DNA of 38,695 nucleotides from Gemmatimonadota bacterium (GTDB lineage: Bacteria > Gemmatimonadota > Gemmatimonadetes > Gemmatimonadales > Gemmatimonadaceae). The notes under the pieces are model-generated. The model made no database searches. It saw only the letters and a list, made by a program, of their open reading frames with translations, and was not told where the DNA came from. The translations under genes and the position numbers were made by a program. The number at the start of each line of letters is the position of its first letter. Within the stretch, counting starts at the first letter, position 1. This document shows positions 16,330 to 32,684 of this stretch, piece by piece. The stretch lies in assembly GCA_026387895.1 (NCBI GenBank), contig JAPLKT010000026.1:25476-64170 (forward strand). The letters run 5' to 3'.

Positions 16330-17039
16330 GGCAGTCTTGCGATCACTTGGTCGCGATAACGCAGGTCGAGTTCTGTGGCACGTTGATTTCTGTTGATCAG
16401 GTCCTGCTCCACCGGGATCACATCTGTTAGGCGCTGGGCGGTCACACCCGAGGCGGCAAGGATTGCAAAGGTGCCGCTCTCGTTGAGCCGAACCAGCAGA
16501 TCGCCCTTGGGCAGGCGGCGAATCTCTCCTACTCTGGCAAACAATCCCGGCGCGAGGTCGCGCAAATCACCGAGCAACGCGAGCGCGGCGATGTCGCGTG
16601 ACGCAAGTACCGGCAAATCCATGTCGGCGGTGGTCGGGTCTACGGGGAGCGAGCGCCCCACCGCATCGACCGGCACCAACCCCGACGCTGCCGGCACAAG
16701 TGCCACCGGCAAGTTCTCCGTGATCCGAACGACGAGCGTTCCCGGAAGCCGCCGCGAGATGTGCACATCGCGCACCGACGGATGCAGCCGAACCCGCTTT
16801 TCGAAGGGTTCCACGTCGTCGAAGACCGACGCGGTGCTGTCCACCCCCAATCGCGAAACGATTTGGTCGGGACTGACGTAACGTGTCCCCCCGCACAGGA
16901 AGAGCACGGCCCGCAGGCGTTTCTTCCATCGTGGCCGCTCTGGAGCGGCGCTCACCGCGGGTGTCGCGCGTCCACGCCCGCGCTCCGTGGGTGGTGGCTC
17001 GGGGATGGTGTCAAAATCGTCGAACGGGGCGTCGGCCAT
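16326..17039 (-). CDS. ftsQ: FtsQ with internal in-frame deletion (membrane segment / POTRA strand 1)
   Basis: Bitopic divisome protein that recruits FtsL/FtsB/FtsW; 237 residues. The cytoplasmic tail is Pro/Arg-rich and ends RPRWKKRLRAVLFLC (about 35-49). The expected 20-residue membrane helix stops after about nine hydrophobic residues. The sequence then jumps straight to GGTRYVSPDQIVSRLGV, which belongs inside the POTRA domain just after its first strand. The remaining POTRA and beta domain (VRLHPSVRDVHISRRLPGTLVVRITENLPVAL onward) looks normal. I infer loss of roughly 20-30 codons in frame near 16886-16895, next to a run of six Gs. As written, the product would lack a stable membrane anchor. 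Position between murC (7-nt gap) and ftsA (ATGA overlap) supports the identity. Confidence 0.82.
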   Translation of the reverse strand: MADAPFDDFDTIPEPPPTERGRGRATPAVSAAPERPRWKKRLRAVLFLCGGTRYVSPDQIVSRLGVDSTASVFDDVEPFEKRVRLHPSVRDVHISRRLPGTLVVRITENLPVALVPAASGLVPVDAVGRSLPVDPTTADMDLPVLASRDIAALALLGDLRDLAPGLFARVGEIRRLPKGDLLVRLNESGTFAILAASGVTAQRLTDVIPVEQDLINRNQRATELDLRYRDQVIARLP

Positions 17040-20778: not shown

Positions 20779-22178
20779 GTCTCCACCGCCAATCGCTGGA
20801 AAGTCGTGCCGCGTTCTTCGTAGTTGCTGAACATGTCGAAACTGGAGCAGGCTGGGGAGAGCAACACCGCGTCGCCAGGCTGCGCTACAGCTCGGGCACG
20901 CGAGACCACTTCCTCGAATGACGATCCGAGGCGCTCCAGCGGCACGTGACCCGCCAAGTCCCCCTCGATCTGCGCCGCGGCCTCGCCGTAGGCAATGACG
21001 AGCCGCGCGTGCTGCTGCAGCAGCGGAATGAGCGTCTCGTAGGATTCGCCCTTATGCCGGCCACCGAGGAGCACCACGATAGGGCGTATCATCCCAGCGA
21101 CCGCAACCCGGGCGGAACTTACGTTCGTGGCCTTGGAGTCATTGATCCACTGCACGCCGTCGACCTCACCGATGACCTGCAGCCGATGCGGCATCCCGCC
21201 AAAGGTGGCGATCGCGGCGGCCATCAGAGCCCGCGCGTCCGGCGTCCGGTGCGCGGGATCAGCGACCGCGACCGCCAGCACAGCCGCGAGAACATTCGCG
21301 ACATTGTGGTCGCCCAAGAGCGGGATGTCCGCACGACGCATGAACGAGGTCCCAAAGATGGTGACCTCGCCGTGCGTCAAGTCTGCCACTCCCTCACACG
21401 ACGGATGTTCCCCGGTTACTGACCGGTCGGTGTTCGCATCAACCGTGAACCGATGGTGCGTCCCGGGGATTCCGCGCACGCGCCGCTGCACTTCGGGGTC
21501 ATCGGCATTCGTGACCCAGCGCGACCGAGCCGTGGCAGTGGCAAAAAGTCGCATCTTGTCGCCGTAATATTCGTCAATCGACGCGTACCGATCTAGATGA
21601 TCGGGGGCGAGGTTTGTGAGGACACCAACTGTCGGCGCGAGACTGGGCGTGTCGTGCAACTGAAAGCTCGACATTTCGAGCGCGATCCACTCGGGAGGCA
21701 TATTCTGCATCGCCAGCACACTCACCGGCGTGCCAATGTTCCCCGCGGCGACGGCTTTGGCGCCAAGCGCGGTCAGCAGATGATGGATCAGCGCTGTCAC
21801 GGTTGTCTTGCCGTTGGTTCCCGTCACCGCGATGTATCGCGTTGTGTTTGGCAGAAAGGCCAGCGCGGCCTCGACTTCGCTGAGGATCGGGATCCCCACC
21901 TGAGCAGCGGTGACGAGCGGGGGGGCGGTAGGCGGGACGCCAGGGCTCGCCACGACGGCGAGGGAGCGCGAGATCCGTTCGAGGTCGTGGTGCCCGACGT
22001 CGACGGCAATGCCCTGCGCCACGAGCTCGTCGGCAGCCGCTCGCACACCCGCGCCACTGCCTGCATCCGACACATAGGCGCGCCCACCATACCGCGCAAT
22101 CAGTTCGGCCACCGCGCGGCCGCTGCGTCCCAAGCCGATGACCGCAATCTCGCCACGGCCCATCAGGGAGCGAATCAC
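20775..22178 (-). CDS. murD: UDP-N-acetylmuramoylalanine--D-glutamate ligase
   Basis: Cytoplasmic Mur ligase adding D-Glu; 467 residues. The N-terminal nucleotide-binding fold has IAVIGLGRSGRAVAELI. The central ATPase domain has the P-loop VTGTNGKTTVTALI, AAGNIGTPVS, the ALEMSSFQLHD segment and NLAPDHLDRY. The C-terminal domain has GMPHRLQVIGEVDGVQWINDSKATN, then LLGGRHKG and LLSPACSSFDMFSNYEERG, all diagnostic of MurD. The start is GTG at 22178 in a GTGA overlap with mraY; an in-frame ATG five codons later is possible. It is intact, unlike mraY immediately upstream in the transcript. Confidence 0.97.
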   Translation of the reverse strand: MIRSLMGRGEIAVIGLGRSGRAVAELIARYGGRAYVSDAGSGAGVRAAADELVAQGIAVDVGHHDLERISRSLAVVASPGVPPTAPPLVTAAQVGIPILSEVEAALAFLPNTTRYIAVTGTNGKTTVTALIHHLLTALGAKAVAAGNIGTPVSVLAMQNMPPEWIALEMSSFQLHDTPSLAPTVGVLTNLAPDHLDRYASIDEYYGDKMRLFATATARSRWVTNADDPEVQRRVRGIPGTHHRFTVDANTDRSVTGEHPSCEGVADLTHGEVTIFGTSFMRRADIPLLGDHNVANVLAAVLAVAVADPAHRTPDARALMAAAIATFGGMPHRLQVIGEVDGVQWINDSKATNVSSARVAVAGMIRPIVVLLGGRHKGESYETLIPLLQQHARLVIAYGEAAAQIEGDLAGHVPLERLGSSFEEVVSRARAVAQPGDAVLLSPACSSFDMFSNYEERGTTFQRLAVET

Positions 22179-23258
22179 CGCAGCTTCAGCGTGGTGAGTG
22201 CCACGAAGGCACAGAGGATGCCAATGATCCAGAAACGCACCACCACCTGATTCTCAGGCCATCCCTTGAGTTCGTAGTGATGATGCAAGGGTGCGCGCAG
22301 GAAGACGCGGTTCTTCTGTGCGTACTCGAGGCCATGCCGCTTACGCCGCATCTTGAAGGCCGTACGCTGAATCACAACGGAGATCGTCTCAGCGACGAAC
22401 ACACCACCGATGAACACCACGAGAAACTCGGACTTCAAGAGAATCGCCACGGCACCCAGCGCGCCACCCAACGCCAGTGACCCGGTGTCCCCCATGAACA
22501 CCTGCGCCGGATGCGAGTTGTACCACAGGAATCCAAGACACGCACCAAAGGTCGCGGTACAGAAGATCGTCAACTCGCCGGCCCCACGCAGATAGAAAAG
22601 CTGCAGGTAGTTCGCGGCATTAAAGTTGCCCATCGAGTAGGCGAAGAGGGCGAGGGTGGCCATCGCAATAGCCATGAGCCCAGCGGCGAGCCCATCGAGG
22701 CCGTCCGTCAGGTTCACCGCATTGCTGGTGCCAGTGATCACGAACGTGACGAATGGCACGTAGAGCCACGCCATCCCAATCGTGGCCGGCACGACGAGGA
22801 CGTACTTCATGAAGGGGAGAGTCGTTGACGCCCCAGGCAACGGATTCAGCGGCACCTGCCACAGATACACCGCCATGACCAATCCAATCGCGATTTGCCC
22901 CGTCAGCTTGTACCGCTCGACCAACCCGCGGTTCTCCTTCCCTTCCCGCTTCTGCTTGAGCTTAGACGTACCGATTGTCGAGCCGCATCCAAAGCAAGGT
23001 AGGAATGAAGGTCGCGGCGAGAATAATCAGACCGCCCATGGTCGGGGTTTTTCCCTTCCCCGCGTGCGTCTCAGGAGTCCCCTCGCGCACCACCTGGTGA
23101 ATCATCATCGACTGGAGCCGACGCAGAATCATGGGGCCAATCACAAAGGCCACCAGCAACGCAGTCACAGCAGCACCCGCCGCCCGGAACGAGATGTACC
23201 GGAAGACGTTAAAAATCGAATGCTGCTTCGCGAGCGGGAACAGGAAGTAATAAAGCAT
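22175..23258 (-). pseudogene. mraY: mraY (phospho-MurNAc-pentapeptide translocase), frameshifted with catalytic block missing
   Basis: MraY makes lipid I in the inner membrane. Here the gene is in two frames. The first (ATG 23258 to a TAA at 22962-22964) gives 98 residues, including GTPETHAGKGKTPTMGGL, and ends LDNRYV. The second frame resumes at 22963 with KLKQKREGKENRGLVERYK and runs 262 residues to 22175, containing NAVNLTDGLDGLA, PAQVFMGDTGSLALGG and APLHHHYELKGWPE. Against E. coli MraY the missing piece is about 19 residues covering a membrane helix and the conserved Asp-Asp-Tyr that supplies catalytic aspartates. The predicted gap is 59 nt. Everything else is conserved, so either the assembly lost sequence or this copy is dead. 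It lies between murF and murD as expected. Confidence 0.88.
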
Positions 23259-23265
23259 CGCGTGG

Positions 23266-24631
23266 TTACCTGACTCCGGGGGAGGCGGACCAATCTGTAA
23301 GGTACGGCACGAGGCGCTCGAGGCGTACCCCTCGCGAGGCCTTCAGCAGAATCGCCGCGTTTGGCCTGAGCAGGGGCTGCAGCAACGGCCACAGCTCATC
23401 CACATCTGGGGCGGTCACGACAGTCGTCGCACCATGCGGAACAGTGCCGAGCGCTGCCGCAAAATCACCGATGCCGGCGACCACCCCAGCGCCACTCGCG
23501 AGCGCCGCCTCGGCAATCTCCCGATGCGAGCGCTCCGCGGCCGAGCCCAGTTCGCGCATAGTTCCCAGCACAATCACGCGTGGCCGAGTGCCCGCGACGT
23601 CCGCGAGCAACGTAATGGCCGCCCGCGCCGATCCGGGATTGGCGTCGTAGGCATCATTGATGAGCAGCGGCGCCGATCCGGGATTGGCGTTGTAGGCATC
23701 ATTGATGAGCAGCGCGCTGCCGAGTGGCACGACGGACGAGCGCATAGCGGGCACACTGCCCAGATCGATTCCTGCAATGCCCTGCGCCGCGTCCTCCATG
23801 GCGACCCCACACTCGGCGGCCACCGCGAGCGCGAGCATCGCGTTGCGCAGGTTGTGCGCCCCGCGGAGCGGGACCTCCACACGCGTGCCATTGACGTCCA
23901 TCCAGCCTCGGCCGTCCTCGTGCAATCCGTGGGCGGTCGCGGCCACTGTGCCGTCGCCGAGCCCCACGGACACAACGCAGCCCGTGCGCGCCACGCGCGC
24001 CATTGCCTCGCGCAGCAGCTCAACCTCCGCCGCCGGAATAATCACGGTCGCGACGCCATCGCACAGCGAGGCCTCCTCTGCGAGCACTCCCACGAGATCG
24101 CCGAACCCTTCGAGATGCTCTTCCTGGATTGCCGTGACCACCGCGATGTTTGGCTCGGTGATAGCGCGCAGCCACGCGATTTCGCCCGGCGCGTTGGTCC
24201 CAACCTCGATAACGGCTACGTCGGTGTCGTCGGGGAGCGCCAGCAGCGTGAGCGGTACGCCAATCTGGTTATTGAGATTGCCTTGCGTGGCGTGCACATT
24301 CAGCCGCGCACTGAGGGCGCCGCGAATCAACTCCTTCGTGCTCGTCTTCCCGTTGGAGCGCGTGTACCGTATCCTTCACCACTAGTGCCGGCACTCCGAG
24401 CCCAGCGGCGCGTGGTCCAGAGTTCACAATCACCGCGACCGCTCCCTTGGCAACGGCCTCCGCCAGAAAATCGTGCGCGTCAAAAGTCTCGCCGACCAAG
24501 GCAAGGAAACAGTCGCCGGGCTGCACGGCACGGGTGTCCGTGCAGATCGCACGGATTGGGCGATCGTCAGCGACGCCGAGTTCTAGCGCGGCGTGCAGAC
24601 GGCGGAGCGTCCAGAATGGGGCCGCGCTCAC
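23266..24631 (-). pseudogene. murF: murF (UDP-MurNAc-tripeptide--D-Ala-D-Ala ligase), frameshifted with P-loop start missing and internal duplication
   Basis: MurF adds D-Ala-D-Ala to UDP-MurNAc-tripeptide. The first frame starts at GTG 24631 (GTGA overlap with murE) and encodes DTRAVQPGDCFLALVGETFDAHDF and VVKDTVHA. At about 24357/24358 the homology jumps to another frame reading SNGKTSTKELIRGALSARL, then TQGNLNNQIGVPLTLL, VIEVGTNAPGEIAWL and EEHLEGFGD, to a TAA at 23266. By comparison with E. coli MurF about 20 residues are lost, including the front of the ATP-binding loop. The second frame also carries a 15-residue tandem duplication of LLINDAY(N/D)ANPGSA. Both parts sit exactly where murF belongs. 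As written, no complete MurF can be made. Confidence 0.88.
23625..23714. repeat. Tandem duplication, 2 x 45 bp, inside murF
   Basis: Copies 23625-23669 and 23670-23714 are directly adjacent and differ at one base (C at 23646, T at 23691). On the coding strand this changes Asn to Asp. The unit is a multiple of three, so it adds 15 residues in frame. The copy with Asn (23670-23714, read first in the protein) matches the canonical MurF segment; the other is the extra one. Confidence 0.95.
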
Positions 24632-28559: not shown

Positions 28560-29439
28560 CTACTGGGCTTTTCGCCAACAGCGCAAGTGCGCGCTCCGGG
28601 CGCGTGTGTTCCGAGCCGTCTCCTCGGTCGTGGCGGAGAGGGCCTTCTTGGTGAGCGGCAAGCCGAGTGGACGTCCGCGACAGGTGCACTGGAGCTGCTT
28701 AGGGGGACAGATGCACGACGAGCTCCACTCGCGGAAGGCGTGCTTGGCCAGCCGGTCCTCCCCCGAGTGGTAGTCGATCACTGCAAGGACGCCTCCAGGG
28801 GTCAGTCTGTCACGGAGTGCCGGGAGGGCTCGGGCCAGTCCGTCGAGCTCGTCATTGACGGCAATCCGAACGGCTTGGAATAGCCGGGCAAACTCTGGCG
28901 CTCCCGACCGCGGTCCCAACACCTTCCGGATTGCGCCCACCAGGTCGTCGGAACTCTCTAACGGACGGTTCTCGCGCCGGTGGATAACCTCTCGCGCCAG
29001 CCGGCTCCCCTTGGGCTCGTCGCCGAACTCCTTGAATGCCCGCGTGAGCTCGTCCTCGCTTGCGCTGTTCAGCCATTCGGCGGCGCTGAGCCCGCCATCG
29101 CGCCCCTCCATTCGCATGTCGAGCAGGGCACCCTCGCGGAACGAGAAGCCTCGACTCGCGTCGTCGAACTGGTGGCTGGAGACGCCGAGGTCGAGCAGAA
29201 TGCCATCGAAGGTCTGGCCGATGAGTTCGGGGGCAAGATCGGCGTCGGCGTAGTTGGTGAGAACAGTCCGGAATCGCCCGTTGCCTTCGTACTCCGCGAG
29301 TCGCGCGCGCGCGGTCGGAGTGTCCCCCGCCTCCCAACGTGCAGTCCAGCACGCGATGCCCTCCGCGGAAGGCGTCGAGAATCTCCGCCACCATGACGGG
29401 GGCGTGATAAACGGAGTCGAAACGCGCGGCGTCGGTCAC
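28560..29439 (-). pseudogene. rsmH: rsmH (16S rRNA m4C1402 methyltransferase), frameshifted with SAM-site block missing
   Basis: First gene of the dcw cluster; RsmH (MraW) N4-methylates C1402 of 16S rRNA using SAM. The first frame (GTG 29439) gives 41 residues: YHAPVMVAEILDAF and the SAM loop LDCTLGGGGHS. Near 29318/29319 homology moves to a second frame, beginning CCG ACC and reading RARLAEYEGNGRF. It continues through FDGILLDLGVSSHQFD, RGFSFREGALLDMRMEG, FQAVRIAVNDELDGL and VIDYHSGEDRLAKHAF to a TAG at 28560 (252 residues). Compared with E. coli RsmH, about 19 residues between GGHS and the acidic IDRDP-type strand are absent; the predicted gap is 59 nt. No Shine-Dalgarno precedes the GTG. 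No mraZ lies upstream. Confidence 0.88.
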
Positions 29440-29698: not shown

Positions 29699-31202
29699 CT
29701 AGTGAATCGTCCCGAGGAAAAAGTACGCAACACCGGAGACGAATCGCGATCGTGTAGATGAGCACGTAGGCCACCCACGTCAGCACCTTCTCAAAGTCGG
29801 CGACGGTCTTCGGATCCGCCTTCTGCGCAGCGGAGAGCAACTTGCTCGACCCACTGACTGCGAACTGACCCACGGTTCCGGCATCTTCACCGGCCTTGAC
29901 GGCGTCATGCATCGCGGTGAACAGCGTGTCCCACTGTCCGGCATCGTGGTACGACTTCAGGATAATGAGGCGAGCGCCCGGCGTCTTCGGGTTGATTTCG
30001 AGTGCGCGGCGGAGCGAGGTGATCGCCAGCGCCGTCTGCCCGCCCTTCAACTCGAACTGTCCACGCTTCGCCCAGAAATCATCACGCTTCGGGAACTTCG
30101 CGGTTGCCTTGGACGCCGTCGACGCGGCCTTTGCCGTGTTGCTGTCGGACGAGTACGCCGAGATCATGCGGTCGAAGTAATCAGCATCGGCGAGCGACGT
30201 ATCCATCTGCACCATCTCTTCGCCGACTTTTACGAACTTCTTGAGGTCGTCCGTGGCGCCCAAAACCAGCCAGTACAGCTTGGCCAGACCGGCGTCGCCG
30301 GGGTTCTCGCCGACCGCCTTCTCGATCATCGGCTTGGCCAAGTCAAACTTCTTGGCCGCCGCAAGTTCGTTCACGACCGTGAGCTGCAGTCGGGTGTTGC
30401 TCGGATCGGCCTGATAGAGCTTCATCAGGGCGTCGATCTTCTTGTCGGTCTGCCCAGCGGCTTCATACTGATTGATCGCTTCGGCGAGCGCTGGCTTGCT
30501 CTTGGGGTCGAGCTTGAGGATGTCTTCAACGACCGGAAGGATCTCGGCGGCCGGCTTCTTCTGCGACGTGAGCGCCTGCATTTGGCAGAAGCGAATCCAG
30601 GTGCTCGCCGGGAAACTCTTCACTCCTTCAGCGACTTCCTTGGAGACTTCGGCCCACTTGGACTCACGCACGGCAAGACGGCAACGCTTCTCGCCATCGA
30701 ATACACTGTGCGCCTTCTGGTAGGCCTTGGAGACCTGCGCGGCGACGACGTCGAGCTTCGGGCCGGAGAAAGTGCCGAGCGGCTGCACGAGCGACGCATC
30801 GCGCGCGAGCACAACGTTCGCCTCAATGGTGAAGCCTGTGGCGGTTTTCTGCACGCTGCCTTCGATGTACTCGTCGGCGCGCAGCATCTTCGCGAGCTGT
30901 ACGGCATCCGACGGCGAGAGCGCCTCGGTCACCGAGTATCCCGACTGCTCGAGATTGTTGTTGATGTCGTTTTTCGGGAACACATAAAGTTCGCGAACTG
31001 ACATGTCGCCGGCGATCCGATCACGGAGTGATTCCGCGGCATCGGGGCCGAGCTTCTTGTCCTCGCTCTTGAGCGTGCCGATCATCAATCGGGGCGCATT
31101 GGGATTTGCGCCACGCGAATACTGTGCGCTAGCCGTGGACGCCATACCGACAAACAGCGCCGTCACAATCGCCGCGAACGCGCGGGCCTGATGCCGAGCC
31201 AT
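29571..31202 (-). CDS. Exported TPR-repeat protein, C-terminus frameshifted
   Basis: From ATG 31202 (GGAGG 10 nt upstream) the protein has a signal peptide ending ASTASAQ. An N-terminal domain of about 140 residues (RLMIGTLKSEDKKLGPDAAESL, LRADEYIEGSVQKTATGF) resembles TolB/CsgG-type N-terminal folds; that assignment is tentative. Tetratricopeptide-like helices follow (for example VVEDILKLDPKSKPALAEAINQYEAAGQ and RRALEINPKTPGARLIILKSYHDAGQ). Up to KVLTWVAY the sequence is regular. Then a frame change near 29740-29765 yields an out-of-character Arg/Cys-rich tail to 29571. The natural tail survives in the neighbouring frame and would end at 29516. Function unknown; probably a periplasmic scaffold. 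A -10-like TATAAC (31250-31245) lies upstream. Confidence 0.75.
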   Translation of the reverse strand: MARHQARAFAAIVTALFVGMASTASAQYSRGANPNAPRLMIGTLKSEDKKLGPDAAESLRDRIAGDMSVRELYVFPKNDINNNLEQSGYSVTEALSPSDAVQLAKMLRADEYIEGSVQKTATGFTIEANVVLARDASLVQPLGTFSGPKLDVVAAQVSKAYQKAHSVFDGEKRCRLAVRESKWAEVSKEVAEGVKSFPASTWIRFCQMQALTSQKKPAAEILPVVEDILKLDPKSKPALAEAINQYEAAGQTDKKIDALMKLYQADPSNTRLQLTVVNELAAAKKFDLAKPMIEKAVGENPGDAGLAKLYWLVLGATDDLKKFVKVGEEMVQMDTSLADADYFDRMISAYSSDSNTAKAASTASKATAKFPKRDDFWAKRGQFELKGGQTALAITSLRRALEINPKTPGARLIILKSYHDAGQWDTLFTAMHDAVKAGEDAGTVGQFAVSGSSKLLSAAQKADPKTVADFEKVLTWVAYVLIYTIAIRLRCCVLFPRDDSLGRPDQEQAVLRCKGRAGCLHQRADQPARRWCDQRRSDQAAAR

Positions 31203-31628: not shown

Positions 31629-32684
31629 TCATTCTGGTTCCTTCGCCACCCCTGTCGAGGACGGCGCGTTGACCTCTGGAGGCGTCCCTGCACCGAGCCC
31701 CAGCACCTCTGAGAGCATACTCTCCCGCTCCTGCCGCTCCTGCTCCGCGTCCGCACGTCGCAGTCGCTCCATCCGGTCCGTATCCCGCGCTCGGCGCTGC
31801 CACCACAGTGGCCCCAAGAGCAACAGCAACACGAGCGACCCGAGTGTCGCATCGGTGAGCATCGCCAGCGCCCCATAGCGCAGCCGGGTCCGCAAGCGCC
31901 ACCGTGCCTCCACAGCTTCCGCCGTTTCCCCGTAGGCTCTGCGCAATCCGAGGTCGAACGAGCCCGTCTCCTTCCAATACCCGAAAAATAGCGAGAAACC
32001 CCGCTCAGGGTCACCTCGGGCGATTTCTTCGACCGCTCGAACGGATAGCGCATAGGCCGCGTGCGCCCGATCCTCCCCTTCTACGAACAATCCGTCCAAC
32101 TCGCTGAGACGGGGGAGCCCCCGGAGCGCCAACGCGAGATTTGTCGTGATGACCCCGTCCCCGTCCATTTCACCCGCCGCGAGGGTGGCATATCCCTCAT
32201 CGAACCAGCGCGGCGGGAGGTCCCCGAGGCGCTCGTGGAGTGCCAAATGGGCCAACTCGTGCCGAAGAACCCGGACGGGGTCCCCGGCCGAGGAGGGGGC
32301 CAACCGGCCCTGCATCACAATCCGTCCCAGGGCCGGGTAGGCCAGCGCGGCCCCCCATTCGGGGGCGCCTGCGCCACGCCAGCGTCGGAAGGTGCGGGTA
32401 TCTGGGGCTACAAAGATCTGTACCAGCCCGCGCGACCGGGGAAGCCCCGGGAAGGAATCGTCACGCGCTGCGGCCGCCAGGAGGGAGCGCGCGAGTTTTT
32501 CGTCACCTGGAGCCGACACAGCCGAGAATCGCCCACTCTCGTGGACAACTAACCCTGCGAGCGACGGAGGCCCCTGCGCGGCGGCCACCGTCCCCGCGCC
32601 CCACAACATCCCGGCGATGAGCGCACCGCCTACACATGCCGTGAAACGAGGTCGCCCCTCAGCTCTCGACGGCATAGAAGCCAA
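31629..32684 (-). CDS. Membrane-anchored zinc metallopeptidase (HExxH, peptidase MA-like)
   Basis: 351 residues: an N-terminal signal or anchor segment (about 16-36), an extracytoplasmic catalytic domain, a membrane helix near residues 275-297 (LGSLVLLLLLGPLWW) and a charged cytoplasmic tail with coiled-coil character. The zinc motif is HELAH (142-146), followed by WFDEGYATL with Glu163 as the likely third ligand, the gluzincin pattern seen in peptidase MA-type families. Substrate unknown. The ATG at 32684 overlaps the rluD end by 26 nt; a second ATG at codon 4 is equally possible. It is the last gene of the punA-to-peptidase operon. Confidence 0.75.
   Translation of the reverse strand: MASMPSRAEGRPRFTACVGGALIAGMLWGAGTVAAAQGPPSLAGLVVHESGRFSAVSAPGDEKLARSLLAAAARDDSFPGLPRSRGLVQIFVAPDTRTFRRWRGAGAPEWGAALAYPALGRIVMQGRLAPSSAGDPVRVLRHELAHLALHERLGDLPPRWFDEGYATLAAGEMDGDGVITTNLALALRGLPRLSELDGLFVEGEDRAHAAYALSVRAVEEIARGDPERGFSLFFGYWKETGSFDLGLRRAYGETAEAVEARWRLRTRLRYGALAMLTDATLGSLVLLLLLGPLWWQRRARDTDRMERLRRADAEQERQERESMLSEVLGLGAGTPPEVNAPSSTGVAKEPE

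Follow-up and report, generated by a model that had tools for sequence, protein, structure and literature searches.

The stretch of DNA analyzed here (the window; 38,695 nt) corresponds to C140:25476-64170 within a draft genome of 2.85 Mb and 154 contigs that is 96% complete. A cluster of mur and fts genes lies in this window, and mraY is present in two pieces on the minus strand (Table 1). A sequence-only reading of the window had described a first part of 98 residues ending in LDNRYV, followed by TAA and a switch to another frame. This description was borne out, as the gene is not one continuous reading frame but is divided between two frames, with the continuation after LDNRYV-TAA reading KLKQKREGKENRGLVERYK... 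in the different frame. The same reading had placed the resumption six bases after the stop codon. The AAG that opens the resumed frame starts inside the TAA, so that this frame overlaps the stop codon; the change of frame was correctly identified, but the distance was slightly off. A search with TIGR00445, the model for phospho-N-acetylmuramoyl-pentapeptide transferase, produced a match to mraY of 288.7 bits over positions 83-321, exceeding the curated cut-off of 192.05 bits, plus a second piece at positions 3-63. The Asp-Asp residues of MraY are catalytic, and the Asp-Asp motif that comes after the helix following RYV is absent at 22963/22964 of the gene as written.

Table 1. Pieces of mraY and departures from the reference relative G015 on contig C140 (window coordinates except where C140 is given)
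Feature	Coordinates	Strand	Remarks
mraY N-terminal part	22962..23258	-	98 aa, LDNRYV then TAA; 97% aa identity to G015 MraY
mraY C-terminal part	22175..22963	-	starts KLKQKREG; 98% aa identity to G015 MraY
mraY junction, 59 nt lost vs G015	22963..22964	-	20 residues lost, including Asp-Asp-Tyr block; no N, no microhomology
ftsQ, 87 nt lost vs G015	16890..16893	-	in frame; ~29 residues in N-terminal half
murF, 62 nt lost vs G015	24354..24359	-	frame change
murF 45-nt tandem duplicate	23660..23704	-	one mismatch; INDAYNANPGSAPLLINDAYDANPGSA; absent from G015
rsmH (mraW), 62 nt lost vs G015	29317..29318	-	frame change
TPR-type ORF, ~23 nt lost vs G015	29745..29765	-	frame change
Another gene, 52 nt lost vs G015	C140:1820		outside window

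The reference relative was G015, the closest genome compared and a member of the same genus as the source. The G015 alignment spans both flanks of the mraY junction, with identities of 87% and 91%, and G015 holds exactly 59 extra bases between window positions 22963 and 22964, while no window bases are left unaccounted for. The mraY gene of G015 is intact, and its product has 20 residues between RYV and KLKQ (...WIAMLVMLWMGAIGFLDDYL...), including the Asp-Asp-Tyr block. By comparison with E. coli MraY, the sequence-only reading had estimated that about 19 residues (59 nt) were missing and that this block was lost with them. The estimate proved to be essentially exact, and the block, absent from the window gene, is found in G015 within the extra bases. 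An uninterrupted single mraY frame was present in 105 of the 110 fetched loci, the other 5 being the window itself and four loci truncated at a contig end. The Asp-Asp motif was detected in all of the intact relatives whose mraY segment was displayed. The relatives named in GTDB were Gemmatimonadetes MAGs, with an amino acid identity of 81% for L033.

Alignment with G015 detected losses of 52, 87, 59, 62, 62, and ~23 nt on C140, all clean and all free of Ns; breaks of like kind to that in mraY are present elsewhere on this contig. MurF and RsmH of two other relatives (G014 and G016) gave matches without interruption, indicating that bases in these two genes had been lost from the window rather than gained by G015. 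The tandem duplicate in murF probably represents overlapping contig ends that were not merged, and these ends possibly derive from two strains. Two N runs are also present on C140, a 22-N run at C140:5228-5249 that stands for ~49 bases in G015 and an 18-N run at C140:25458-25475 that stands for ~20 bases and adjoins the window start. The latter run cuts an alanine-racemase-like gene at the left edge of the window. At window position 32622, G015 has ~3.2 kb more between the two flanks, which is likely to be a real difference in gene content.

The census of lesions covered three contigs only (286 kb), each compared with G015. Many of the matches with internal stops looked like wrong-frame ORFs, and the analysis therefore relied solely on frame changes at high identity. 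The two other large contigs (C30 and C70) likewise contained runs of N, together with a small number of comparably sharp losses in coding sequence (80 and 107 nt). Some of the losses on these contigs, located where the sequence is repeat-like or aligns poorly, may reflect true differences.

Between the window mraY and that of G015, codon changes across the two halves comprised 120 that were synonymous and 7 that were nonsynonymous. As judged from these changes, strong purifying selection acts on each half of mraY, with no sign of decay. A like excess of third-position changes relative to G015 was observed for murF and for the intact neighbors ftsA, murC, murG, ftsW, murD, murE, and ftsI, and no evolutionary decay was detected in the apparently broken genes. 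If the cluster were truly without mraY, murF, and rsmH, such conservation would not be expected unless the losses were very recent.

The junctions themselves were also examined. Across the compared losses, microhomology at the junction amounted to 0 to 5 ambiguous positions, with none at mraY. Microhomology-mediated deletion was rejected because microhomology at the junctions is slight or lacking, a property that fits a join across a gap. Hairpins or extreme GC content were considered as causes of lost coverage and found no support, as neither the hairpin energy nor the GC content of the lost segments was unusual. In three related drafts of the family (G001, G005, and G027; loci L178-L182), contigs terminate downstream of this mraY segment at a distance of 13 to 50 nt, and the two contig ends of G001 at mraY overlap by 28 nt. 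Three contig ends were thus seen at this spot versus 0.3 to 0.5 expected, the expectation being a rough estimate from contig numbers and the clustering having been noticed post hoc. This clustering constitutes modest, after-the-fact evidence that the mraY segment may be difficult to assemble.

The sequence-only reading had left two explanations standing, a stretch lost in assembly or a dead copy of mraY with a functional gene elsewhere in the genome. As the MAG is ~96% complete, a second copy could sit in the missing part. The search of the whole draft genome (~4% incomplete) with TIGR00445, however, detected no mraY beyond the two pieces, and matches to the missing piece elsewhere in the draft genome were at chance level only; the canonical position of the gene in the cluster and its strongly conserved flanks likewise argue against a dead copy. 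This explanation is therefore unsupported and we regard it as extremely improbable. A real and recent deletion in the sampled population, such as one confined to a minor strain, to a dying lineage, or to a variant without a wall, would agree with the sequence as given, and a clean loss without microhomology is possible. Such a deletion would, however, need independent and near-simultaneous losses in mraY, murF, rsmH, and ftsQ, none of which has decayed, and the N gaps and join-like duplicate of C140 also count against it, making a real deletion very unlikely. No other copy of murF or of rsmH was detected in the draft genome. It is not plausible that the out-of-frame losses in mraY, murF, and rsmH, lacking replacement copies and located in a constrained cluster, are all real. 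That this is a free-living bacterium with truly broken mraY, murF, rsmH, and ftsQ genes, representing a lineage that is only now giving up its peptidoglycan wall, is barely credible.

The break in mraY is, in contrast, very probably an artefact of assembly rather than biology; several neighboring essential genes carry like losses without Ns. Loss of the stretch in assembly, as envisaged in the sequence-only reading, is strongly supported by these losses together with the N runs, the purifying selection, and the intact relatives. The pattern fits a scaffolded short-read assembly. Two contig ends were probably joined over a short unsequenced or unresolved gap of 59 nt without Ns being written; alternatively, overlapping contig ends could have been set side by side and left unmerged. 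We infer that the join would have been made by the assembler or a scaffolder. The living cell most likely has an ordinary, intact MraY encoded in the usual division and cell wall cluster.

Joins without Ns in draft genomes can mimic the loss of essential genes, and apparent losses of this type call for caution. A usable sign of such joins is that neighboring conserved genes on a single contig show several out-of-frame losses of 50 to 90 nt. A search of the literature for artefacts of this kind in MAGs yielded no sufficiently specific source. The mraY case is very probably an ordinary assembly artefact with no real feature behind it.

In comparison with known systems, both window pieces fit the MraY family (TIGR00445), match the G015 protein at the identities given in Table 1, and occupy the usual genomic place of the gene in the mur/fts cluster, whereas the gene as written differs from the family in the absence of the Asp-Asp-Tyr block and in its shifted frame. 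With the gaps of short-read MAG assembly and scaffolding, C140 shares N runs, small, clean, out-of-frame losses in conserved genes, and a short tandem duplicate. The mraY junction differs from such gaps in that no Ns were written, and the gap consequently passes for real sequence.
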